The position numbers were made by a program, and so were the translations under genes. Below are positions 1 to 20,133 of a stretch of DNA of 22,444 bases, in pieces; position 1 is the first letter of the stretch, and each line of letters begins with the position of its first letter. The stretch is from a virus: positions 1 through 22,444 of IMG/VR virus record IMGVR_UViG_3300036846_000994. One strand, 5' to 3'. Below the pieces are notes generated by a model, which was not told where the DNA came from, made no database searches, and worked only from the letters and a program-made list of their open reading frames with translations.

Positions 1-134
1 CGATTGTCGACCCATACATCGCCGACTTTAAACGGTGCGGTTTCGCGGACTGCATTAATCAATTTTGTTTCGGCGTCTTGAAGCTCATCCCTGAGGCGCG
101 TCACTTTGTTTTTCAGATCATCAATTGCGGTCAT
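1..134 (-). CDS. Partial small coiled-coil protein, cut by the window edge
   Basis: A leftward reading frame starts with ATG at 134 and runs off the window with no stop. The visible 44 residues begin MTAIDDLKNKVTRLRDELQD and look like a charged, heptad-like helix, followed by a segment ending in FKVGDVWVDN. A good ribosome binding site (GGAAGGA, about 7 nt upstream) supports the start. It lies 38 nt after the stop of the preceding leftward gene, so it is probably the last visible gene of unit C. I do not recognise the family. The helix-then-beta pattern would suit a small DNA-binding or scaffold protein, but that is a guess. Confidence 0.6.
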   Translation of the reverse strand, partial: MTAIDDLKNKVTRLRDELQDAETKLINAVRETAPFKVGDVWVDN

Positions 135-1904: not shown

Positions 1905-3125
1905 TTAGTCCCCGAGCTGGACGTTCTCTCCCCACGGGGCCTCGGAGCCGCGCTCGCCGCTGAGCCAGAGGACCGGGAAGGGCTGGGGCTCGCCGAAGTC
2001 CGCCCGCGTCATCTCCATGTCGCTGAGGACGATGGCGCAGCGCGGCTGGTAGTTGTTGTCGTGGACGGCCTGCCAGATGGGCCGCATCGAGGTGCCGCCG
2101 TAGCCACGGACGGGAACCTCCCGGGGCAGCTCATCATCGGGGCCAAACTCGGTGACGTTGTGGACGCGGGTGTCGCACTGGATGAAGATCGTGCGCTCCG
2201 GCTTGACCTCCGAGAGGATGAGAGCGAGGAAGCCGAGGAAGCGGGGCACGAGGGTCCGGCAAGAGCCGCTGGTGTCGATGCCGATGACAATCTCACCGAT
2301 GCCCTGGCTGTGGAGCGAGGGGAGGATGAGGTTGCTGTGGATGGAGCGGCGGTTGGGCCGGGACCAGCTGTAGTCGTCCTTGCGGCACATCGACACGTAG
2401 TAGCGGATCAGGTCCCACGGGTTGAGGCGGGGCTTGACCGGGCGCACGAGGTGCTCATAGGAGCCGGGTAGGTGGCCTTGGCTCTTGGCGATCTCGGCGG
2501 CCTGACGGGCGATGATCGTCCACTTCCGTTCGAGGTCTTCGAGGATGGCGCGCTTTTCCTGGGCGGTAGCAGCTCCGCTGGTGGGGTCGGTCGGGTCATG
2601 GATGTCGCCGTCGAGGCCGCAGGGGGGAAGCTGGGGCTGGTTGGTTTTGTTCTCCTCGTAGAGTTGCTCTGCTGCCTTGCCCTTGTTTTGAGGGTTATGG
2701 AAGATGGCGTTGGCCTCCGGCGAACCGTGGTCGGGAGGCTCAAAGCCATGGAAGATCAGCTCCGGGTCGATCCGTTGGTCACAAGCGATGTTCCAGCCGA
2801 GGGGATCACGGGAACCACGACGCCAGCCGTCGCCCTTGGTGCAGTGCGAGGTTTCGTGGGCGATGGTGGCGATGAGTTGAGCGTCGCTGACCTGCGCCTT
2901 GTCGGCATAAACGAGGGGGTCGTAGATGATGTAGGTGCCGTCGGTGCCGATGTTGCCGCCGGCGAACTTGCCGAGGTGGGGGACGGGCTTGAGCTGGAGG
3001 TGAAGGGCCGCCGTCGCCCAGAAGGCGAAGGTGCATTTCCCGTTGGCGTCGTGGGTGGTGAGCATGTGGGACCGGGTGCGACGGATGCGGCGGTCGGCGA
3101 CGGCGATGGCTTCATCGAGGTTCAT
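1905..3125 (-). CDS. Putative metallopeptidase with VWA-like domain (406 aa)
   Basis: The ATG at 3125 is chosen because an AAGGAA ribosome binding site precedes it; the frame stays open to 3203 without support. Residues 90-94 read HETSH, an HExxH zinc motif, followed by the conserved-looking WNIACDQRID segment (111-120). A linker then leads to a VWA-like domain with a MIDAS-type DTSGS at 284-288, GGTS at 343-346 and LSDME at 367-371. This layout matches the DUF2201-type 'putative metallopeptidase plus VWA-like' proteins, whose usual partner is a MoxR AAA+ ATPase, present here as the 344-residue gene. VWA proteins of this kind act with the ATPase as adaptor or effector in remodelling metal-bound or protein complexes. 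The substrate in the phage is unknown. Confidence 0.85.
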   Translation of the reverse strand: MNLDEAIAVADRRIRRTRSHMLTTHDANGKCTFAFWATAALHLQLKPVPHLGKFAGGNIGTDGTYIIYDPLVYADKAQVSDAQLIATIAHETSHCTKGDGWRRGSRDPLGWNIACDQRIDPELIFHGFEPPDHGSPEANAIFHNPQNKGKAAEQLYEENKTNQPQLPPCGLDGDIHDPTDPTSGAATAQEKRAILEDLERKWTIIARQAAEIAKSQGHLPGSYEHLVRPVKPRLNPWDLIRYYVSMCRKDDYSWSRPNRRSIHSNLILPSLHSQGIGEIVIGIDTSGSCRTLVPRFLGFLALILSEVKPERTIFIQCDTRVHNVTEFGPDDELPREVPVRGYGGTSMRPIWQAVHDNNYQPRCAIVLSDMEMTRADFGEPQPFPVLWLSGERGSEAPWGENVQLGD

Positions 3126-3138
3126 GGTAGGGTTCCTT

Positions 3139-3167
3139 CTGCACAAAACCAGCAGCAATCGCAGTAT
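3139..3167. repeat. 29-bp direct repeat, copy 1
   Basis: This 29-base stretch begins CTGCACAAAACCAGCAGCAA and ends TCGCAGTAT. It is identical to 10467-10495, in the same orientation. Here it lies in the untranslated leader of the VWA gene, directly upstream of its ribosome binding site. It does not extend beyond 29 bases on either side. A perfect match of this length over 7.3 kb is not expected by chance. Confidence 0.85.
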
Positions 3168-3195: not shown

Positions 3196-3212
3196 TGCGA
3201 CACAGTGTCGCA
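3196..3212. promoter_or_regulatory. 17-bp palindromic operator-like site, unit C
   Basis: TGCGACACAGTGTCGCA is a perfect palindrome around one central base. It ends 70 nt before the first start codon of unit C (3125). Read leftward, its continuation (ATCGCCAA) is also shared with the site at 7595-7611, so similarity extends beyond the dyad. Related sites precede the other two leftward units. A dimeric phage repressor or activator is the likely binder. Confidence 0.65.
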
Positions 3213-3248
3213 AAGCCGAGCGAAGCGAGGCTGCCGCGCGGCATTTTG

Positions 3249-3416
3249 TCAATTGCAGACGGTGGTGTTGCCGATGCGTTGGCACGTCTGCCGCTGGCCG
3301 CTCATGGCGTCGGAGCAGATCGTCGTGTTACCGACTCGCTGGCAGACCCATGTTGCCTTCGCCGGGGTGGTGTAGGCGATGGCGAGTAGTGCAATGGTGA
3401 GGTAGTACTTCATCAT
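3249..3416 (-). CDS. Small secreted Cys-repeat peptide (55 aa)
   Basis: The N-terminus MMKYYLTIALLAIAYTTPAK is a convincing signal peptide, with cleavage likely after the AKA at residues 19-21. The mature 34 residues contain two copies of the same unit, CQRVGNTTICSD and CQRIGNTTVCN, with four cysteines that could form two disulfides. A ribosome binding site (GGGAG, 9 nt) and the start just 1 nt past the upstream stop support translation as the last gene of unit B. A secreted Cys-rich peptide would act in the periplasm or outside the cell. Possible roles are superinfection exclusion, lysis control or inhibition of a host envelope enzyme, all guesses. I do not recognise the family. ATG at 3413 is an alternative start. 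Confidence 0.75.
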   Translation of the reverse strand: MMKYYLTIALLAIAYTTPAKATWVCQRVGNTTICSDAMSGQRQTCQRIGNTTVCN

Positions 3417-3417
3417 G

Positions 3418-3969
3418 TCAGCGAACTCCCTGTGTCAGCATGGTGTAGAGGGCGAGGGTGGCTTCGAGGGGGAAGGCCGGGCAGGGGTAAGCGCCTGCCT
3501 TCCACTTCTCGACGAGAAGCTCGTAGGCTTCCGGCCATGACTCCTTGAGGACTTCGACCGAGCGGATGGAGCCGAGGGTCGCTGTCAACTTGCGGTCCAA
3601 CTCCTCCAGGTCTGCGTGGTGCTTCTGGATGACGGCGGTGTGAGCGACGATCCGGTCGGCCAGGGGATTGGAGATTGCCATCTCGCTGTTGGTGCTAGCG
3701 GGCAGCGGCAAAGGCTCTAGGAAGCGGAGCGTCGTCCAGTGCGGCACCTTGGCGTGAATGTAGCTGTTGGTGTGCAGCCAGCCGGCGGGAACGGCAGCGA
3801 ACTTGGCCGCCCAGTTGGAGCCGAAGTTCTCGGCCAGGACGGCACGGGCCAGGGCGTCCTCGGCCTCTATGATGGGGACCCAGGCTTCGCGGCGGGCCTT
3901 GCCGACAAGTGTTAGGCGGAGGTCCTTGCGGGCAGAGGGGGTGAGAGGTGTCTTGCGGGTCTTTTCCAT
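3418..3969 (-). CDS. Nmad5-like phage protein (183 aa)
   Basis: The start at 3969 has AGGAG at about 9 nt and follows the DUF3150 gene by 6 nt. The N-terminus (LTPSARKDLRLTLVGKA, then a helix with EAEDALARAVL) and the LPxGW-like PAGWLHTNSYI segment recall Nmad5 proteins, a family named for association with nucleotide modification in phages. The C-terminal SVEVLKESWPEAYELL helix also fits what I remember of that family. The match is by memory of pattern only. If right, it would tie the AAA+/VWA cassette to DNA modification or counter-defence, but no modifying enzyme is visible in this window. No signal peptide or membrane segment is seen. Confidence 0.5.
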   Translation of the reverse strand: MEKTRKTPLTPSARKDLRLTLVGKARREAWVPIIEAEDALARAVLAENFGSNWAAKFAAVPAGWLHTNSYIHAKVPHWTTLRFLEPLPLPASTNSEMAISNPLADRIVAHTAVIQKHHADLEELDRKLTATLGSIRSVEVLKESWPEAYELLVEKWKAGAYPCPAFPLEATLALYTMLTQGVR

Positions 3970-3975
3970 GGCTGG

Positions 3976-4860
3976 CTACTCCTGTGGGTTGAGGACGGCG
4001 CGAAGCTGGTCGAGGAGGTCGACCGCCTCGTCTTTCACTTGCTCGCGAAGGTAATCGTCCTTCTTGAGGTCGTCGGGCGTGTAGCCGCAGAGCTTGGTGG
4101 CGAGGGCGACACGCATGGCTTCGAGGGCCGGGTCCTTGGTGATGTTGAGGCGGCTGAGCCGGTCGGTGAGTTCTGAGAGGTTGCCGATGAGGCTGTCGTG
4201 GATGCGGCCCTTGATGACCTTGCCGTCGGCGTCCTTCTCGTACTCGGAGAGGCGGTCGACGATCCGAGTGACAGCATCCGTCATCTCCTGCCACATGAAG
4301 GACTGCATCCGCAGGATGTCGGCATTGTTTTGCTCGACAAGGGAGAGGCGGATGGCCTCGGCCTCGTCCTCGGCGACACCGGCGCGGAAGTCCTCGGCAT
4401 CGGGCACGCCGAAGATTTCGACGGAGACGGCGAAGCGGGCCTGGACCTGTTCGCGGGTCGGGTAGTCGAACTCGCGGGCCAGGTCGCCCAAGGCGCGCTG
4501 GCCGTTGGCGACGTGCTGGGACCAGCGAAGGGTCAGGGCGTTGACGGCGGCCTCGAACTCCATCCGGCGGATGCGCCAGCCCTCGGTGAAGGGGAAGAAG
4601 TTCTCCACAGGGAGGAGGGTGACACCATCCCAGCGCCAGGGCAGGGTTTCCGCACGGACAAAGGAACGGAGGCCGTTGGCCGCTGTGTGGATGGGATCGA
4701 TGGCCGCCTTGGCGATCAAGTACTTGGTGGTCTTGACCTGATGCCGGTCGGCCTTGTGCCGCTCGGCGGTGTCTTTTGACGCTGCGCGGTCGAGAACTTC
4801 CCCTCGCCATACGGAGATCGAAGGACGGACCAGCATGGCGCGTTCGGTAAGCAGTGACAT
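3976..4860 (-). CDS. DUF3150-like protein of the MoxR/VWA cassette (294 aa)
   Basis: The ATG at 4860 has a textbook AGGAGG ribosome binding site. The longer frame to 5247 overlaps the AAA+ gene and is discarded. The protein is soluble and mostly helical. It has AMLVRPSISVWRGEVLDR at the start, the motif LPWRWDGVTLLPVENFFPF near residues 74-92, and NLSELTDRLSRLNITKDP followed by charged helices at the end. These features fit DUF3150-like proteins, which are commonly found next to MoxR ATPases and VWA proteins. It sits exactly between the AAA+ gene and the rest of the cassette. It probably bridges the ATPase and VWA component or binds the substrate, but this is inferred from context. Confidence 0.7.
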   Translation of the reverse strand: MSLLTERAMLVRPSISVWRGEVLDRAASKDTAERHKADRHQVKTTKYLIAKAAIDPIHTAANGLRSFVRAETLPWRWDGVTLLPVENFFPFTEGWRIRRMEFEAAVNALTLRWSQHVANGQRALGDLAREFDYPTREQVQARFAVSVEIFGVPDAEDFRAGVAEDEAEAIRLSLVEQNNADILRMQSFMWQEMTDAVTRIVDRLSEYEKDADGKVIKGRIHDSLIGNLSELTDRLSRLNITKDPALEAMRVALATKLCGYTPDDLKKDDYLREQVKDEAVDLLDQLRAVLNPQE

Positions 4861-4883
4861 GGCTACCTCCTGTGCTTTGGTGG

Positions 4884-5918
4884 TTAAGAGAGCAGGTCCT
4901 GGAACTTGGCGCAGAAGCGGATGAAGGCACCGCTCTTCTGGAGCCGCTGGTAGCGGTTCTGTTCCAGGGGAGGGAGGGCCTTGAGGCGGGCGGCATCGAC
5001 CGCTAGAGCGCTGCGGACGGTGTAGACCGCGAACTCCGGTTCCACGCGGTCGAGATAGCGGACGATGCGGTCGAAGTTGTTGTTGGTGGCGGCGGAAGAG
5101 AGGGCGGTTGTGACCACGTAGAGCGCGCCGGGGTTGGTGGGGACACGCGCCGTGTCGGGATTGGCGAGGATTTGGGCGACGGAGACAAGTTCCGAGGCCA
5201 TGCTGGCGAAGGCGACGAACTCGGTGGCCGGTCCCTCGCCCACCCATCCCTTGATCGCCTCGAACGGGGGAATAGAGGGGGCGTAGGCGTTGCAGACCTT
5301 GGACAACTCGTCCCAGGTGCGGGGGCAGGCGAAGGGGCCGGGAACCTCGGGCTTGAAGTTCACGAAGTTCATCGGAGCGTGTTGGATGAAGGCGCGGACC
5401 AGGACGGAGCCGCCGGTCGCCGCCATGTGCTGGGTCCAGCCGTCCCTGTCGGGCTCGAACTCCAGCCAGCCCATCTTGCTGACGAGGGGCTTTGGCATCT
5501 GCTGGACGGCGGCCCGGTCCTCAGCCCGGTTGCCGGTGGCGACGATCATCCAGTCGGGGCCGATGTTGTCCCGCTCGTAGACCGTGCGATAGGCGGCCGC
5601 CTGGGTTAGCGGGGGAGCGGTGGGCAGGTCGTCGAAGAGGATGAAGCCAGCGCCGGTCTTGGGTACGAGGTCGCTGAAGGCTATGCGGCGCGCTTCCCCA
5701 TCAATGATGGCCGGGAGGCCGCCGAAGTCGAGGGGGTCGACCACCGTCATCTGAATGGCGCGGAAGGCGAAGTTGGGGATGGTTTCCTCGATCACAGAGG
5801 CGGCGGCCCGGACACAGGCGGACTTGCCGATGCCGGGGGGGCCGGAGAGGTAGGTGGTCTGGCGGAGGCCAGCCATGTAGAGCTTGGTGAGGTGATCGAC
5901 TACCTGGTTGAAGATCAT
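4884..5918 (-). CDS. MoxR/CobS-like AAA+ ATPase (344 aa)
   Basis: Walker A is GPPGIGKS (residues 26-33), Walker B is FILFDD (92-97) and sensor 1 is the Asn of IVATGN (130). The order and the short N-terminal helix before Walker A are typical of MoxR-type AAA+ proteins, which form rings and remodel partners together with a VWA protein. The partner is probably the 406-residue HExxH/VWA protein in unit C. The second half is helical with low similarity to anything I can name. The start at 5918 has AGAAGGA upstream. It is the first gene of unit B, 60 nt after an operator-like site, so its expression probably sets that of the whole cassette. Confidence 0.9.
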   Translation of the reverse strand: MIFNQVVDHLTKLYMAGLRQTTYLSGPPGIGKSACVRAAASVIEETIPNFAFRAIQMTVVDPLDFGGLPAIIDGEARRIAFSDLVPKTGAGFILFDDLPTAPPLTQAAAYRTVYERDNIGPDWMIVATGNRAEDRAAVQQMPKPLVSKMGWLEFEPDRDGWTQHMAATGGSVLVRAFIQHAPMNFVNFKPEVPGPFACPRTWDELSKVCNAYAPSIPPFEAIKGWVGEGPATEFVAFASMASELVSVAQILANPDTARVPTNPGALYVVTTALSSAATNNNFDRIVRYLDRVEPEFAVYTVRSALAVDAARLKALPPLEQNRYQRLQKSGAFIRFCAKFQDLLS

Positions 5919-5978
5919 GGTGTTTTTCCTTCTCAGCGAGTGATTGGTAGTTTACTTGGTTACTTGGTTTTTGAACCA

Positions 5979-5995
5979 TGTGGCATATTGTCGCA
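5979..5995. promoter_or_regulatory. 17-bp operator-like site, unit B
   Basis: TGTGGCATATTGTCGCA keeps one perfect half (GTCGCA) and a degenerate other half of the TGCGAC-N5-GTCGCA site. It ends 60 nt before the AAA+ start at 5918. Between the two lie tandem TTACTTGG repeats (5951-5967), read leftward as CCAAGTAA. A single CCAAGTAAC also lies in the leader of unit A (7542-7550). Confidence 0.5.
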
Positions 5996-6022
5996 CCCAA
6001 AAACTTCCCTAGGACTGTTGGG

Positions 6023-6469
6023 TTAGAAGCTGCCGGGGGCGCACTGGAGGCAGGTGTAACCCCGCTCGCGCCACATATTGACTACCTGGTCCCGGTCATC
6101 GACGAAGAGGATCGGCTCCCAGCCGTCGGTCAGCATCTGGTCCAGGAGTTCGGACTTGACGATGTGGTCGGGCCGGTGATCGCCCTCCCGCCGCATGTAG
6201 AGCGCGTTGTGGACGATGCTGTGGCGCAGCAGCCAGGCCATTGTTTCTGAACGGCATTCGTCGCTGCGACCACTGACGATGATCATGCCGTCGTCGTATG
6301 CAGCCAAGGCCAGGTCGCTGTAGAGGCGGGCAACCGGCTCGATCAGCGCGTCCCCACCACATGTGGCGAAGAAGGCTCGCCAGTCCGGCGGATCGGTCTT
6401 GATGAGGGGCAGGCGGTGGTCTAGGTTGGCGAGGGTGCCGTCGAGGTCGAATACGTAGCACTTGGTCAT
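6023..6469 (-). CDS. HAD phosphatase, polynucleotide-kinase 3'-phosphatase-like (148 aa)
   Basis: The start at 6469 has AGGAG at 6 nt; an in-frame ATG at 6508 overlaps the previous gene and is rejected. HAD motifs are all present: FDLDGT (nucleophile D8, acid/base D10), VSGR with S66, K105 in HIVKSELL, and FVDDRD with D124/D125. The compact form without a large cap fits the phosphatase half of phage polynucleotide kinases, which removes 3' phosphates from nicked RNA or DNA. No kinase domain is fused, and none is seen nearby. A nucleotidase role is an alternative. It ends unit A. Confidence 0.85.
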   Translation of the reverse strand: MTKCYVFDLDGTLANLDHRLPLIKTDPPDWRAFFATCGGDALIEPVARLYSDLALAAYDDGMIIVSGRSDECRSETMAWLLRHSIVHNALYMRREGDHRPDHIVKSELLDQMLTDGWEPILFVDDRDQVVNMWRERGYTCLQCAPGSF

Positions 6470-6471
6470 GG

Positions 6472-6669
6472 TCAGCTCCTCTTGGTGGTCAGGTGCCATG
6501 CGCCGCACCAGCAGCGGTAGGCGTGCTGGAGGGGGGCGTGGAACTTGCGGTGGATGTAAGCAGCGTGCTCTTCCGCCTCTTCACGGTTGTTGTAGGGCTT
6601 CTTGAGGCAGGCCCCGTCGTGTGCGCCGAGGTGCTGGCGCAGCTTCTTCAGGGCGTCGTACATCGTCAT
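6472..6669 (-). CDS. Small Cys/His protein (65 aa)
   Basis: The ATG at 6669 overlaps the previous stop as ATGA, which sets the start (in-frame ATGs at 6678 and 6663 are possible). The protein has C21, a KPYNNREEAEEHAAYIHRKF helix and the C-terminal motif AYRCWCGAWHLTTK. The 'YxCxxCxxWHLT' ending is common in small phage proteins, where the Cys and His residues could hold one zinc ion. The function of the family is not established. It lies directly before the HAD phosphatase, with 2 nt between them. Confidence 0.7.
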   Translation of the reverse strand: MTMYDALKKLRQHLGAHDGACLKKPYNNREEAEEHAAYIHRKFHAPLQHAYRCWCGAWHLTTKRS

Positions 6670-6854
6670 GGGTGCCATCCGGGGGCAACATGCGCGACCC
6701 AGCCGAGGAGATCGTCGAGGTAGCGCCCGAGGGCGAAGCCGGCGGCCGCGCACAGGAGCATGGCGAGCGCCAGCGTGAGCCAGCGCAGCCAAGGCCGGGG
6801 AGGCGCGGATACGTGGGGTATCCGCTCCAAGCCCGGTATGTGGTCTAGGCTCAC
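6666..6854 (-). CDS. Small single-pass membrane protein (62 aa)
   Basis: A GTG start at 6854 overlaps the previous stop as GTGA, with GAGGT nearby as ribosome binding site. Residues 1-23 are Pro/Arg-rich, residues about 24-43 are a strong membrane helix (LRWLTLALAMLLCAAAGFAL), and the tail is short. The positive charge before the helix suggests an inner-membrane protein with the N-terminus in the cytoplasm. A holin- or spanin-like role cannot be excluded, but the position among early genes argues against it. Its last codons contain the third copy of a 21-bp repeat found in the control region. Confidence 0.65.
   Translation of the reverse strand: MSLDHIPGLERIPHVSAPPRPWLRWLTLALAMLLCAAAGFALGRYLDDLLGWVAHVAPGWHP
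6681..6701. repeat. 21-bp repeat, copy in coding sequence
   Basis: This copy begins GGGGGCAACATGCGCGACCC and matches the core of the two control-region copies (7727-7747, 7815-7835). Here it encodes part of the C-terminus of the small membrane protein and sits just upstream of the start of the next leftward gene. Confidence 0.8.
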
Positions 6855-7102
6855 AGGACCTCGTAGCGGCGGTGGCTGCCGCCCATGACGTAGCTGTAAA
6901 GGCCCCGGTTGGCCTTGTGGCACTCCAGGGCATAGGCGACAGCCTGGCCGATCATGCGCGGCGGCCAAGTGGCGCAGCGGCGACGTATGTCGGCTTCGAC
7001 CTCTGCGTCGGGGGTGCCGACGTGGACGCGGCCCATGAGCCACTTGATGTCGTAGCGGGGGAGCTTGTCATCCCACCGCTTGCCGAACTCGTACTTAGCC
7101 AT
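6851..7102 (-). CDS. Small hypothetical protein (83 aa)
   Basis: The ATG at 7102 has AAGGGAGA at about 8 nt. The overlapping longer frame to 7387 covers two other genes and is rejected. The protein is soluble, with a basic, aromatic N-terminus (MAKYEFGKRWDDKLPRYDIK), then GTPDAEVEADIRRRC and a helix GQAVAYALECHKANRGLY. The 'GTPDAEV' helix start might belong to a helix-turn-helix, but this is weak. I do not recognise the family. Confidence 0.65.
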   Translation of the reverse strand: MAKYEFGKRWDDKLPRYDIKWLMGRVHVGTPDAEVEADIRRRCATWPPRMIGQAVAYALECHKANRGLYSYVMGGSHRRYEVL

Positions 7103-7104
7103 GG

Positions 7105-7281
7105 CTAGGCTCTCCCTTGCTTGCGTAGTTGCAGACGATACTCCGACATGTCCCACAGAGCGGCCGGGATGTGCGGCGGGAGGCCCCAATAGGGGCGCTC
7201 CTTGTAGTGCAATATCAGGAGGTTGCCGGTGCGCAGGTAATGGACGGCGGCGCAGTGGAGTACCCACATGGTGCGTCCCAT
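7105..7281 (-). CDS. Small hypothetical protein (58 aa)
   Basis: The frame starts with ATG at 7281 behind GAGGG and lies 2 nt past the stop of the gene before it. It ends with TAG at 7105-7107, just before the next start. The protein begins MGRTMWVLHCAAVHYLRTGN and has an aromatic/Pro stretch ERPYWGLPPHIPAALWD. The 'YWGLPPHIPAALWD' part looks like a real folded motif rather than noise. The tight fit between two genes with ribosome binding sites makes it likely to be translated. Function unknown. Confidence 0.65.
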   Translation of the reverse strand: MGRTMWVLHCAAVHYLRTGNLLILHYKERPYWGLPPHIPAALWDMSEYRLQLRKQGRA

Positions 7282-7283
7282 GG

Positions 7284-7514
7284 TCAGGCCCTCGTGCGGA
7301 TGCGGGTGGCCGGGATGCCGGTCCTGACGAGAAAGGACCAGGTGGCATAGCGGTCCTGCCCTTTGGCCGTCGCACAGCGCAGCACAATGCGGGCGCGCTG
7401 CTGGACGCTCATCATGTCGCAGCCCCTGGTGTCTGCGTACAGGTTGCAGAGGTTGTCTATGTCCTCTGAAGCATTGTCCTGTAGGTCCTGGAGTACCTGT
7501 GTAGCGATCTTCAT
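7284..7514 (-). CDS. Small hypothetical protein, first gene of unit A (76 aa)
   Basis: The ATG at 7514 has CCAGGA upstream at about 10 nt. The protein is helical and soluble: MKIATQVLQDLQDNASEDID, then a segment MSVQQRARIVLRCATA and an Arg-rich end. It is the first gene of the leftward block after the control region, a place where early phages often encode host-takeover proteins. I do not recognise it. It is followed by the 58-residue gene after 2 nt. Confidence 0.65.
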   Translation of the reverse strand: MKIATQVLQDLQDNASEDIDNLCNLYADTRGCDMMSVQQRARIVLRCATAKGQDRYATWSFLVRTGIPATRIRTRA

Positions 7515-7594
7515 GGCCTGTGCTTCCTGGTGTGGTAGGTTGTTACTTGGTAGGCGAACACCAATATTGGGCGCTTTGCCTGGAAACTTGTCGA

Positions 7595-7611
7595 TGCGAC
7601 CAAGTGTCGCA
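7595..7611. promoter_or_regulatory. 17-bp palindromic operator-like site, unit A
   Basis: TGCGACCAAGTGTCGCA has perfect 6-base arms with a 5-base spacer. It ends 80 nt before the first start of unit A (7514). Read leftward together with flanking bases it matches the unit C site at most positions over about 24 bases. Confidence 0.6.
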
Positions 7612-7627
7612 GCAAAAGCTCAATGTT

Positions 7628-7648
7628 TTCAACGGCTTAGCGGCAAAT
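7628..7648 (-). repeat. Inverted copy of the ATTTGC-TAAGC-GTTGAA element
   Basis: The reverse strand reads ATTTGC-CGC-TAAGC-C-GTTGAA. The element at 7918-7935 on the forward strand matches at 17 of 18 positions, with one 3-base gap. Both copies lie between a TGCGAC-type site and an AACGC-type site. Confidence 0.5.
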
Positions 7649-7650
7649 GC

Positions 7651-7667
7651 AACGCAACGGTGGCGTT
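7651..7667. promoter_or_regulatory. AACGC-N7-GCGTT palindromic site 1
   Basis: AACGCAACGGTGGCGTT has perfect 5-base arms and matches the perfect palindrome at 8335-8351 at 15 of 17 positions. It is one of three such sites between 7651 and 8351. Confidence 0.5.
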
Positions 7668-7722
7668 CGATTGGGCCGACTTGCGAGCCAACATTTGCCG
7701 AGGGGAGCCCAGGACTGGACTC

Positions 7723-7750
7723 AGGAGGGGGCAACATGCGCGACCCACCC
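7723..7750. repeat. 28-bp direct repeat, copy 1
   Basis: The repeat begins AGGAGGGGGCAACATGCGCG and ends ACCCACCC. It is identical to 7811-7838, and the two copies start 88 bases apart. A 21-base core also occurs at 6681-6701. Confidence 0.85.
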
Positions 7751-7781
7751 GTGGCTGGGAGGGCTTGACGGCGAGTCTAAG

Positions 7782-7814
7782 TCCTGGTACTCCCTCTATG
7801 AGGGAGTACCAGGA
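7782..7814. other. Perfect 15-bp hairpin with 3-base loop
   Basis: The left arm 7782-7796 (TCCTGGTACTCCCTC) and right arm 7800-7814 are exact reverse complements around the loop TAT. The second 28-bp repeat begins at 7811, inside the right arm. No T-run follows on either strand, so an ordinary intrinsic terminator is unlikely. It could be a bidirectional transcription barrier, an origin element or a recombination site. Confidence 0.8.
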
Positions 7815-7838
7815 GGGGGCAACATGCGCGACCCACCC
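7811..7838. repeat. 28-bp direct repeat, copy 2
   Basis: This copy is identical to 7723-7750 and overlaps the last four bases of the 15-bp hairpin. Confidence 0.85.
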
Positions 7839-7893
7839 TTACCCATGGGCTGGGCGGGGACGCGCCCACATGCGAGGCGAAAAAACCTGGCTA

Positions 7894-7910
7894 GGTGACA
7901 GAATGTCGCA
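7894..7910. promoter_or_regulatory. 17-bp operator-like site, degenerate
   Basis: GGTGACAGAATGTCGCA keeps one GTCGCA half and a degenerate partner. Read leftward with its flank (TGCGACATTCTGTCACC then TAGCCA) it matches the unit C site at about 18 of 24 positions. It is followed rightward by the ATTTGC element and an AACGC site. Confidence 0.45.
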
Positions 7911-7917
7911 GGCTACG

Positions 7918-7935
7918 ATTTGCTAAGCGGTTGAA
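7918..7935 (+). repeat. ATTTGC-TAAGC-GTTGAA element, forward copy
   Basis: ATTTGCTAAGCGGTTGAA corresponds to the reverse complement of 7628-7648, apart from one mismatch and a 3-base gap. Confidence 0.5.
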
Positions 7936-7959: not shown

Positions 7960-7976
7960 AACGCGCCGGGAGCGTT
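7960..7976. promoter_or_regulatory. AACGC-N7-GCGTT palindromic site 2
   Basis: AACGCGCCGGGAGCGTT has the same 5-base arms, the same spacing and a central CGG like its relatives. It lies about 90 nt upstream of the first rightward gene (8067). Confidence 0.45.
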
Positions 7977-8066: not shown

Positions 8067-8273
8067 ATGATTACACCGAAATGCGAAGGCAACACGTTGA
8101 CCTTGGTTGTTGCGCTGAACGTCAAGCCGACGGCGAGCCAGAGCGGCAAGAGCCGCATCGTCGCCAAGACCGGGCCGTTCGTCGAGATTTCGACGCCGTT
8201 CGGCATGGTCAAATACAACCTCAACGTCATTACGACCGATGAGAACTACGGGAAAGGCCCCGCCAAGGTCTAA
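8067..8273 (+). CDS. Small beta-rich protein (68 aa)
   Basis: The ATG at 8067 has only a weak ribosome binding site (ACAGGT). The protein starts MITPKCEGNTLTLVVALNVK and continues SGKSRIVAKTGPFVEIST and MVKYNLNVIT, an alternating pattern of beta strands with a lysine-rich surface, similar in style to small single-stranded nucleic acid binding or OB-like proteins, although I cannot name a family. Codon use is normal for the phage. It is the first rightward gene, has a structured leader, and is followed by a strong terminator, so it is probably a single-gene transcript expressed at a high level. An overlapping reverse frame (7976-8230) looks less protein-like. Confidence 0.7.
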   Translation: MITPKCEGNTLTLVVALNVKPTASQSGKSRIVAKTGPFVEISTPFGMVKYNLNVITTDENYGKGPAKV

Positions 8274-8334: not shown

Positions 8335-8351
8335 AACGCTACGGTAGCGTT
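8335..8351. promoter_or_regulatory. AACGC-N7-GCGTT palindromic site 3 (perfect)
   Basis: AACGCTACGGTAGCGTT is a perfect palindrome around one central G. It lies just after the terminator and 68 nt upstream of the putative HTH gene at 8420, so it could be an operator for that gene. Confidence 0.55.
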
Positions 8352-8419: not shown

Positions 8420-8884
8420 ATGCGGGAGGCGGTTTCAGCTACCCCAACTAGGGGATCACCGGGCAAACCGGTTGTAGACCCAGCGCAGGAATCTACAGGG
8501 GCAGTGTCAGAGATAGGGGATGTGGTCGGAGCGATACAGGTGATGGCGGCAACCCGTAACATGTTCTACTCCCATACTCCAACAGGGAACCCAGACCTAC
8601 GGAACCCATACGGTACGCACCTTTCCCCTGCTAGGCATGGGGCCAAGGGGATCGCAGGACTACGATCCGACATAGGCGACGGGAGCCTATCTCTAGCTCA
8701 GCTCGCTAAGATGTCAGTACGGCAGGTGATGGCACGCTACAGCGTCTGCTATGGGGTAGCATGGCGCATGCGCCGTCATGTGCTGGCCTATGGTCTAGGG
8801 GGACGGTGTAGGCTACCGGGAGGGAGACCCAGGGACGTCCCCCTCCCTAGGCTAGGGCCAGTGACAGATCCACGCACGTAGCGC
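8420..8884 (+). CDS. Putative HTH DNA-binding protein (about 153 aa)
   Basis: The frame opens at TTG 8405; ATG at 8420 behind AAGGGGCTAGGG is more likely. The N-terminal half is low-complexity and probably disordered. Residues about 95-122 read SLSLAQLAKMSVRQVMARYS and then VCYGVAWRMRRHV, which fits a helix-turn-helix (compare 'ARYgVS..tVwRIR'). The C-terminus is basic and Pro-rich. Codon use, with many CTA, AGG and ATA codons, differs from neighbouring genes, suggesting a foreign origin or a weakly constrained gene. A perfect 17-bp palindrome lies just upstream, so it could be the regulator that binds the AACGC-type sites. The ORF itself is moderately supported. The end includes the TAG stop after the last listed codon. 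Confidence 0.45.
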
Positions 8885-9495: not shown

Positions 9496-10131
9496 GTGTC
9501 GACTGCTTTTCCTGGTATCCGAGGCCAGACCCCGCTTGACGACCTCCTAGACTTCAGCGGCACGGTCACTGCCGGCGGCACGGCCCAGCTGCTGCTACCG
9601 CAGCAGCCTCGCCGACTAGCACTGTCGGTTAGTGCAGTTGACGCGACTGACACTCTCTACCTGGGGATCGGACCCGCCAAGGGAGTGGCCACCCTCACCT
9701 CGGGGAGTGTCTCGGCCATCACAGTTAGCAATGGTGGGGTCGGCTACACGCTCGCACCCCAGGTCCGCATTCTAGGCGGGATCGTCCAGGGCGACTACGA
9801 GACGGCCCCCGGCTCGACCAACCTCGGCGGCGCATCCGTACCCGGCAGGGTTGCAGTGGCTCATGCCACCCTGACCGGCGGCGCAGTCAGCGCCATCACC
9901 ATCGACGACCCCGGCGCTGGATACTTGGTTGCCCCCCTTATTTACTTGGAGAACCCTTGGCCGGCGCTTGGCGGCGGAGCCTACGCGCCCGGCGTCAACA
10001 ACGGCATCCCCATCCCGATCAACACCACCTTCACCTTCAATGGCAGCCTCCTCGTCCCCGGCTCCGCCGTCGCCATCTTCGGCGCCACGACCGGCGACCA
10101 GTTCCACGTCAAGGTCGGCGGCCTGGTCTAG
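9496..10131 (+). CDS. Virion-type beta-repeat protein (211 aa)
   Basis: A GTG start (9496) follows a clear AGGAGA ribosome binding site. The protein has two copies of a beta unit: GSVSAITVSNGGVGYTLAP with QVRILGG (about residues 68-94), and GAVSAITIDDPGAGYLVAP with LIYLENP (about 130-156). The 'GxGYtxaP.v.i' unit is common in phage tail and adhesin proteins. The C-terminus is a beta-rich domain ending FHVKVGGLV. No signal peptide is seen. A role in the particle, such as tail or head decoration, is likely. Its stop overlaps the next GTG start by one base. Confidence 0.75.
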   Translation: MSTAFPGIRGQTPLDDLLDFSGTVTAGGTAQLLLPQQPRRLALSVSAVDATDTLYLGIGPAKGVATLTSGSVSAITVSNGGVGYTLAPQVRILGGIVQGDYETAPGSTNLGGASVPGRVAVAHATLTGGAVSAITIDDPGAGYLVAPLIYLENPWPALGGGAYAPGVNNGIPIPINTTFTFNGSLLVPGSAVAIFGATTGDQFHVKVGGLV

Positions 10132-10466: not shown

Positions 10467-10495
10467 CTGCACAAAACCAGCAGCAATCGCAGTAT
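10467..10495. repeat. 29-bp direct repeat, copy 2
   Basis: It is identical to 3139-3167 and in the same orientation. Here it lies in the leader of the late block, while copy 1 lies in the leader of unit C on the opposite transcription strand. Confidence 0.85.
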
Positions 10496-18625: not shown

Positions 18626-20133
18626 TGGCTGACGACGACACGGGTAGGGCGCAGCCCGGCCTCAAGCAGGACCTCCCCCAGCTGAACCTGCCGGATGTCT
18701 ACGTGGGCAAGCCGTCGCCCGATTATGCTGCCGACATCCCGTCGGCGCTGAGGTCGGCGTACAAGGCGATGGTCGACAACGGGGTCACGCCGTGGAATGC
18801 CCGCGAGGCGCTTCTGCCGCCGGCCGACGAGGTGCTGCGTGCACCACTTACCTTTGGCGAAGGAGAGGACCTGGCGATCTACGGGCAAGGCGGCCGGCCG
18901 CAGACCGGCGACCCGGTGATCGGCGGCGGGCCGGCGCAGCTTGGTTTAGAGGGTCTGCGAGGCTACACGCCGGGCGACTACTACAAGCGCACCTATGACT
19001 ATGTCGGGATGAAGAACGCAGCCGACACCCAGCCAGAGCTTGAGGACCAACGTTGGTGGGGAGCCAACCTCCAGCGCAACCGGGCCTTCTTGAACCCAGG
19101 GGCGACGGCCCCCTACAACACGCAGCTGCCACCCCAGCAGGAGGCCCAGTTCCGCGCCTGGCTGACTGATAACAAGATCCCCTTCAATCCCGACCTGCCT
19201 GTGTCGGACTACGACATGCGCGGCTACTGGGCCGCCCTTCAAGCCGGCGACCCGCACGCCAAACAGGAGGTCGACCCCAACGACAACCGGCCGCACTTCC
19301 CCGATTACTGGAAGACACCTCTCTCACCTACCTTTTCCAGCGACAGTCAGTGGGCCAACCCCGAGGTGGCTCCGAGATGGGACGGCGACAACTACCGGTT
19401 GCCGAATGGCCAAATCCTGTGGGACGACAAGGCGCAGAAGTGGATCGGACCCAACCCGCCATGGGGACCACAGAGCCAGGCACCGCAGCCAGCGCTGCCA
19501 CGGATGGGTGGGGTGCCGACGGCCAACTCCCTCCTCCAGCAGATCATGGCCGTGCCGCCGCATGCGCCGCAGGGGCAGGAGGACCCCTCTATTGTTGGAC
19601 TGGCCCCTCGGGAGCGTGACTACCCGAAGGATGACGAATACGGGCACATCCCCCAGCAGGGGCCGGCGCTGACCCCCTTGTCACCACGGTCCCTCCTCCA
19701 GCAGATCGGCACCTTGCACGGGTTTGGCGACATGGACGAACAGGAGAAGGCCGGTAACCTGGTTCCGTCTCTTGTGCCATATCTGTTTGCCCCCGGTAAT
19801 ACGGTCAGACCGGGGGACATCACCAACCCGCCGTACTATAGACCGGGGATGTATGGACCTCCGGCCAACGAGGCAGCTCTTCAGCAGGCTCCCCTCCTCC
19901 AGCAGGCGGCCCTCTTGCGGATGCTGCTGCCGGGTGGGTTGGTGGGGCCGGGCGGCTACAAGCCGATGCCGGGCACCCAGGACAACCCTCTGTTGCAGCC
20001 TGGAGAAGAGGGTGCGGTGGTGGGGTCGAGGCCGGTGCCGGGGAGCCGCGACCGCAATCGGTTCTTCAACCCCAATGGGTTGGCCCCCTATAATCCACCC
20101 GGCGTCCCAGACGACCGTAGTCAGGAGACTTGA
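18625..20133 (+). CDS. Pro-rich structural protein with YDMRGYW domain (502 aa)
   Basis: ATG at 18625 overlaps the previous stop (TGATG), with AGGGACA upstream. Residues about 165-260 hold QEAQFRAWLTDNKIPFNPDL, then SDYDMRGYWAALQAGD, HFPDYWKTPLSPTFSSDSQW and RLPNGQILWDD. I know this domain from structural gene blocks of podovirus-like phages, where it lies near the portal, but it has no assigned function. The remainder is Pro/Gln-rich and repetitive, with three copies of a LLQQ motif, one in NSLLQQIMAVPP and one in RSLLQQIGTLHG. It is probably a virion protein, perhaps internal or at the head-tail junction. Confidence 0.75.
   Translation: MADDDTGRAQPGLKQDLPQLNLPDVYVGKPSPDYAADIPSALRSAYKAMVDNGVTPWNAREALLPPADEVLRAPLTFGEGEDLAIYGQGGRPQTGDPVIGGGPAQLGLEGLRGYTPGDYYKRTYDYVGMKNAADTQPELEDQRWWGANLQRNRAFLNPGATAPYNTQLPPQQEAQFRAWLTDNKIPFNPDLPVSDYDMRGYWAALQAGDPHAKQEVDPNDNRPHFPDYWKTPLSPTFSSDSQWANPEVAPRWDGDNYRLPNGQILWDDKAQKWIGPNPPWGPQSQAPQPALPRMGGVPTANSLLQQIMAVPPHAPQGQEDPSIVGLAPRERDYPKDDEYGHIPQQGPALTPLSPRSLLQQIGTLHGFGDMDEQEKAGNLVPSLVPYLFAPGNTVRPGDITNPPYYRPGMYGPPANEAALQQAPLLQQAALLRMLLPGGLVGPGGYKPMPGTQDNPLLQPGEEGAVVGSRPVPGSRDRNRFFNPNGLAPYNPPGVPDDRSQET

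Follow-up and report, generated by a model that had tools for sequence, protein, structure and literature searches.

A predicted family of 17-bp operators before the first three leftward units of an undescribed phage group

In a phage record from IMG/VR, three leftward gene groups are each preceded by a copy of one 17-bp site, and a fourth copy lies in a divergent intergenic region. Given this placement ahead of the first leftward gene groups and their retention in related phages, the sites are predicted, with near certainty, to be bound by one regulatory protein. As a whole, the observations are best explained by a single operator family for a dimeric helix-turn-helix (HTH) protein, a prediction that we consider probable. 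The window analysed here is the whole virus record, a stretch of 22,444 bp with 63% G+C.

The four sites and the units behind them

The four sites, named A1 to A4, are as follows.

Operator A1, 3196-3212, minus strand: TGCGACACAGTGTCGCA, read leftward TGCGACACTGTGTCGCA; a perfect palindrome, 70 nt before the start of the VWA/metallopeptidase gene
Operator A2, 5979-5995, minus strand: TGTGGCATATTGTCGCA, read leftward TGCGACAATATGCCACA; 60 nt before the start of the ATPase gene
Operator A3, 7595-7611, minus strand: TGCGACCAAGTGTCGCA, read leftward TGCGACACTTGGTCGCA; 80 nt before the start of the 7284-7514 gene
Operator A4, 7894-7910, minus strand: GGTGACAGAATGTCGCA, read leftward TGCGACATTCTGTCACC; in the divergent intergenic region, heading no gene of its own

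The genes and other elements around them are these.

1905-3125, minus strand: metallopeptidase and VWA-like protein (DUF2201), 406 aa, behind A1 (PF13203, 2e-21; PF09967, 7e-18)
4884-5918, minus strand: MoxR/AAA-type ATPase, 344 aa, phrog_1297, behind A2
6023-6469: PNKP-like phosphatase, part of the 7514-to-6023 unit
7284-7514, minus strand: 76-aa protein with no predicted function, the first gene behind A3, which opens the 7514-to-6023 unit
8067-8273, plus strand: small conserved gene on the far side of the divergent region, 97% identical in relatives, with a homologue in L048
8297-8315: terminator-like hairpin that goes with the 8067-8273 gene
8420-8881, plus strand: conserved HTH protein, 153 aa, the best phage-coded regulator candidate

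The first-pass annotation had given the four coordinates and sequences correctly, and A1 to A3 do end 70, 60 and 80 nt from the start codons at 3125, 5918 and 7514. The likeness that it saw running on into the flank is also real: CATCG(C/A)CAA is present at 3196 and 7595 and recurs in relatives. Only A1 and one other stretch of the window form perfect 8-1-8 palindromes, and the palindromes at 5979 and 7894 are imperfect. A scan for sigma-70-like promoters around the sites gave nothing above chance.

Two further elements lie close to the operators. A 14-bp element, TTCAACSGCTTAGC, forms an inverted pair at 7628-7641 (plus) and 7922-7935 (minus); an A operator is 16 bp away from the first copy and 11 bp away from the second. 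All copies of a 29-nt sequence, CTGCACAAAACCAGCAGCAATCGCAGTAT, agree at every base (100% identity) despite diverged flanks. They are distributed over seven contigs of the phage group and include window 3139-3167 and 10467-10495, G006 (L030) 7106-7134, and G002 9531-9559, 19282-19310 and 26951-26979. Its 22-nt core was not found in viral contigs outside the same metagenome. One copy, antisense, immediately precedes the ribosome-binding site in the VWA gene leader, and the others lie sense in non-coding gaps, some of them behind a strong hairpin of differing sequence. The sequence could belong to an antisense RNA that the phage encodes and that acts in trans, pairing perfectly with its target over 29 bp.

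The phage group and its genome map

No near relative of the window phage was found among deposited phages; the Manatee Spring phages were rejected as relatives, with a terminase identity of only ~37% and a different layout. Six more contigs from the window's metagenome belong to the same phage group. Below, G000 denotes the window, G001-G005 its close relatives and G007 a distant relative (59 kb, 66% terminase identity). Bases 1-127 of G006 (L030, IMGVR_UViG_3300036846_001359) are the exact reverse complement of window 1-127, a k-mer overlap of exactly 127 identical bases. The two records are very probably parts of one phage genome, and their end overlap opens ~55 kb of the phage to scanning.

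G002 (L013) carries a 97-bp terminal repeat and is on that ground taken as a complete genome of ~56.9 kb. Its map consists of one leftward and one rightward block, with their point of divergence at the position that corresponds to window 7.5-8.1 kb. A search for tyrosine integrase (PF00589, the tyrosine type only) gave no match in G000, G006 or G002, with positive controls, which makes a lytic lifestyle probable for the group. In G002, the large terminase gene (record 27780-30539) contains a 265-aa insert that is missing from the window, G004 and G005; it starts with C, ends in HN before T, and is by its look an intein.

The scope of the predicted control can be read from this map. The leftward same-strand block runs on for ~13 kb through G006 without a further site. 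The first-pass proposal that one regulator controls the whole early block therefore stands for the three units with which the block begins, near the divergent region, and fails for the rest, where no sites occur to ~13.4 kb in G006; for it to hold over the whole block, transcription from the first units would have to continue into the later genes.

A profile from relatives recovers the sites

A loose consensus (up to three mismatches) finds 16 matches against 15.9 expected, which is no excess over chance, so that likeness by eye is insufficient. We therefore rely on a symmetric matrix trained on nine sites from relatives only, a set without any orthologue of the VWA site at 3196, and scanned over the window and G006 (~55 kb). 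The four window sites take ranks 1-4 with 18.8-22.7 bits, and the next best match scores 12.1 bits. At the matrix score of each site, no more than 0.11 matches per 55 kb are expected by chance. When each position class was left out in turn, the held-out sites ranked 2-5 among ~55,000 positions. The matrix from relatives places the four sites on top, with a wide gap to the next match. Two exact copies together with the profile evidence exceed chance, unlike the loose consensus count.

Further matches in coding DNA were set aside. For example, the match TGCGACATGGTGGCMCA in the exonuclease gene of G001-G003 and G006 was read as likeness carried by conserved codons; the G001 match at 4303 (equivalent to window 1801, also coding) was discounted as conserved-codon likeness as well. 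The G009 match TGCGACGATTTGCCGCG at 38954 falls inside a 1,061-aa reading frame and was taken as chance.

Conservation at orthologous positions

Orthologous sites of the A family were observed in all five close relatives. The A2 equivalent precedes the ATPase gene in G001, G002 and G003, and the A1 equivalent precedes the VWA gene in G002 and G003 as CGCGGCAAAGTGTCACA (CGCGGC-N5-GTCACA). The A3 equivalent stands before the 7514-equivalent gene in G002 and G004; in G005 it lies in the same upstream block with a different next gene start. The A4 position is kept in G002, G004 and G005. The family, its positions and its conservation are thus matters of direct observation, and the claim that one operator family precedes all three leftward units of the window is supported by this positional conservation.

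The distant relative extends the pattern. Over its full 59 kb, the G007 record matches best at 6114 (the A3 equivalent) and 6402 (the A4 equivalent); both matches lie in the equivalent divergent intergenic region, 288 bp apart compared with 299 bp in the window, with a chance expectation of 0.04-0.12 per 21.8 kb. The degenerate pattern has exact matches in G007 only at these two sites and in the complete G002 only at the four equivalent places.

Anatomy of the sites

Read leftward, the consensus is YGCGACR-N3-TGYCRCA, a 17-bp imperfect palindrome whose dyad consists of two 7-bp half-sites with centres 10 bp apart. Among the sites compared (16-18), the core is GCG-N-C-N5-G-N-C: across 18 sites, G2, C3, G4, C6, G12 and C14 are invariant and C16 is nearly so, position 7 varies only between A and G, position 13 only between C and T, and position 15 only between A and G.

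The spacing to neighboring elements follows the same unit at the ATPase gene. The ATPase operator is separated from the next conserved block by 11 nt in G000 and G002, 21 nt in G003 and 31 nt in G001, and the G001 operator contains a third half-site at exactly +10 bp (TGCGTCG-ATT-TGCCGCA-CCT-TGTCGCA). A3 keeps a constant 19 bp to the conserved block AGCGCCCAATATTGG in four phages, with the intervening sequence changed. These half-site, spacing and anatomical features fit the binding of duplex DNA. We infer that the operator is of the dimer type, with one helical turn between its half-sites, and that the binder is a dimer.

The regular 10-nt steps to the start codons had been taken to suggest that the helical face is kept. 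The 70/60/80-nt ladder is specific to the window phage: the distance is 66 nt at the VWA gene of relatives (70 in the window), 78 nt at the 7514 gene (80 in the window), and 60/60/70/80 nt at the ATPase gene across the window and its relatives. Distance to the start codon alone says nothing about the helical face. What survives is the one-turn half-site geometry, indicated by the +10 and +20 spacing of the ATPase site in two relatives, one of which has an added 10-bp half-site unit.

A dimeric HTH protein would bind such 17-bp sites through its two half-sites, one helical turn apart. Each of the first three leftward units has an operator in its control region, and one more operator lies in the divergent intergenic region, so that a single regulator could switch these units together; on this placement, the operators presumably act on transcription.

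Candidate binders

The binder is most likely phage-coded, and the putative best candidate is the 8420-8881 HTH protein, an assignment that we make tentatively and with a little less than even confidence. Three HTH proteins had been named as candidates (the 8420, 1411 and 1178 genes), and the first of these is retained as the best. Homologues occur in G002, G004, G005, L035 and L048, and the gene is kept beside the operators in every relative that shows the region. The G005 copy matches HTH_17 (6.7e-4) and HTH_23 (0.022). In the structure model, which is confident only for residues ~70-125, four helices span residues 77-124 with a pLDDT of ~85; a Foldseek search with this model gave no PDB match at E<=0.001. 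The gene has a weak coding signal and was missed by a coding-potential caller, yet it is conserved. With 52-59% identity it is among the fastest-evolving non-structural genes, compared with more than 90% for the ATPase, VWA and 8067 genes.

A second family of 17-bp palindromes, AACGC-N7-GCGTT, occurs at 7651-7667, 7960-7976 and 8335-8351, only in the divergent region and in front of the HTH gene, and is well conserved in G002, G004 and G005. Since these sites lie directly before its gene, the 8420-8881 protein may bind them instead of the A sites. Coevolution between operators and HTH alleles seemed attractive at 7595, where G000 and G005 were set against G002, and was rejected on the comparison of G002 with G004, which share the recognition-helix sequence while their sites differ at 5 of 17 positions. 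Other host or phage proteins are a rather less likely choice of binder.

It is also conceivable, though unlikely, that a host global redox regulator of the RegA/PrrA/RegR/RoxR family, a Fis-type HTH response regulator, recognizes the sites as its boxes. The published boxes, as quoted in PMC5506826, are YSCGGC-N5-GWCRMA for PrrA and GNGRCRTTNNGNCGC for RegR. All four window sites match the RegR box at 10 of 11 letters, and only 11 such stretches occur in ~55 kb. The PrrA box is matched at 10-11 of 12 letters in the same 5-bp-spacer frame by the window sites, and at 12 of 12 (best strand) by the ATPase sites of G001-G003 and the VWA sites of G002 and G003. The positions that vary among the phage sites (R15, R7 and the AT-rich spacer) are largely degenerate in these boxes. 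However, the published PrrA and RegR boxes are very degenerate, and a ChIP-seq study did not find a strong PrrA consensus (PMC4263372). The phage's host may not be a proteobacterium with RegA, and the match to this family carries a look-elsewhere cost. No phage precedent for RegA-type boxes was found in the literature searched, and the phage itself shows no Fis-type HTH_8 protein.

The first-pass phrase "one phage regulator" accordingly divides. One regulator fits the observations; that it is phage-coded does not follow; the motif also fits a host RegA/PrrA/RegR box. Were the RegA-type reading true, the phage would tie its first leftward units to the redox or energy state of the host cell and would give a case, open to direct testing, in which a lytic phage senses host redox state. 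That a lytic phage group carries host redox-regulator boxes before its first leftward units, with early expression gated by host respiration, seems improbable.

Readings other than an operator

There is a slim chance that the sites are replication-origin repeats (iterons) or another replication or packaging signal. Two of the four lie in the divergent intergenic region, which is dense in repeats (AACGC-N7-GCGTT and GGGTGGGTCGCGCATGTTGCCCCC), but A1 and A2 lie at a distance of 2-4.7 kb, where each directly precedes a transcription unit, and relatives keep them in these places. Nor is there a tight cluster: 3196, 5979, 7595 and 7894 are unequally spaced, with three of them each before a unit. 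The interspersed repeat GGGTGGGTCGCGCATGTTGCCCCC (minus strand; 6681-6704, 7727-7750 and 7815-7838 in the window, five copies in G002) is found mostly in the divergent region and is possibly an origin or structural element.

A very small probability goes to promoters that act as single-stranded hairpins for a virion RNA polymerase, of the kind known from N4-like phages. Such promoters are suggested by the 7-bp stem and 3-nt loop at 3196 and by the nearest relatives of the ATPase, which include many N4-like phages; the ATPase and VWA genes also resemble an N4-like pair. Only 3196 and 7595 of the window sites fold as single strands, however, while 5979, 7894 and the sites of several relatives, G002 among them, do not, and the changes in the arms are non-compensatory. 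The N4 virion RNA polymerase has ~3,500 aa, and the complete G002 has no ORF of more than 1,168 aa; the hairpin-promoter reading is refuted on folding and on the missing giant polymerase gene. No RNA polymerase stands among the annotated proteins, and a search for the T7-type single-subunit enzyme (PF00940) gave no match, but none in the control genomes either.

Chance likeness in G+C-rich DNA, to which the unexceptional loose consensus count would lend itself, is refuted by the profile scores, the held-out ranks and the conservation in the distant phage, and its probability is negligible.

Comparison with known systems

Under the preferred reading, a single operator family for a dimeric HTH protein, this phage group of ~57 kb, undescribed so far and probably lytic, gains a first map of its regulation. 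One operator would link three leftward units, a conserved HTH gene adjoins the control region, and another operator family lies on the rightward side.

With N4-like early hairpin promoters, the phage shares the short stem with a 3-nt loop at 3196 and the ATPase/VWA gene pair; it differs in its unfolded other sites and in the lack of a virion RNA polymerase in its complete relative. In lambdoid phages, a dimeric HTH repressor binds 17-bp palindromic operators whose half-sites are 10 bp apart. The A sites resemble such sets in their ~17-bp length, ~10-bp half-site spacing and several copies, placed at early promoters beside a divergent region. In contrast to a lambdoid set, they are spread over 4.7 kb with one per unit, and a lambdoid repressor system was rejected since the searches of G000, G006 and the complete G002 matched neither a CI/Cro-type HTH_3 protein (PF01381; controls positive) nor the tyrosine integrase. 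The dispersed repressor sites of mycobacteriophages lack symmetry and function mostly as stoperators. They too are one recurring site at several separate genome places, whereas the window phage has only four sites, all at one block.

The boxes of RegA, PrrA and RegR (Rhodobacter capsulatus, R. sphaeroides and Bradyrhizobium japonicum) share with the A sites a 15-17-bp frame, the GNG-N-C-N5-G-N-C dyad and R at matching degenerate places, and phage sites reach 10-12 of the 12 PrrA letters as quoted in PMC5506826. They differ in that the A sites stand at phage and not at host promoters and that most of them have A or T, not G, at position 5. The operator set is new and belongs to an undescribed phage group; its general kind is already known.
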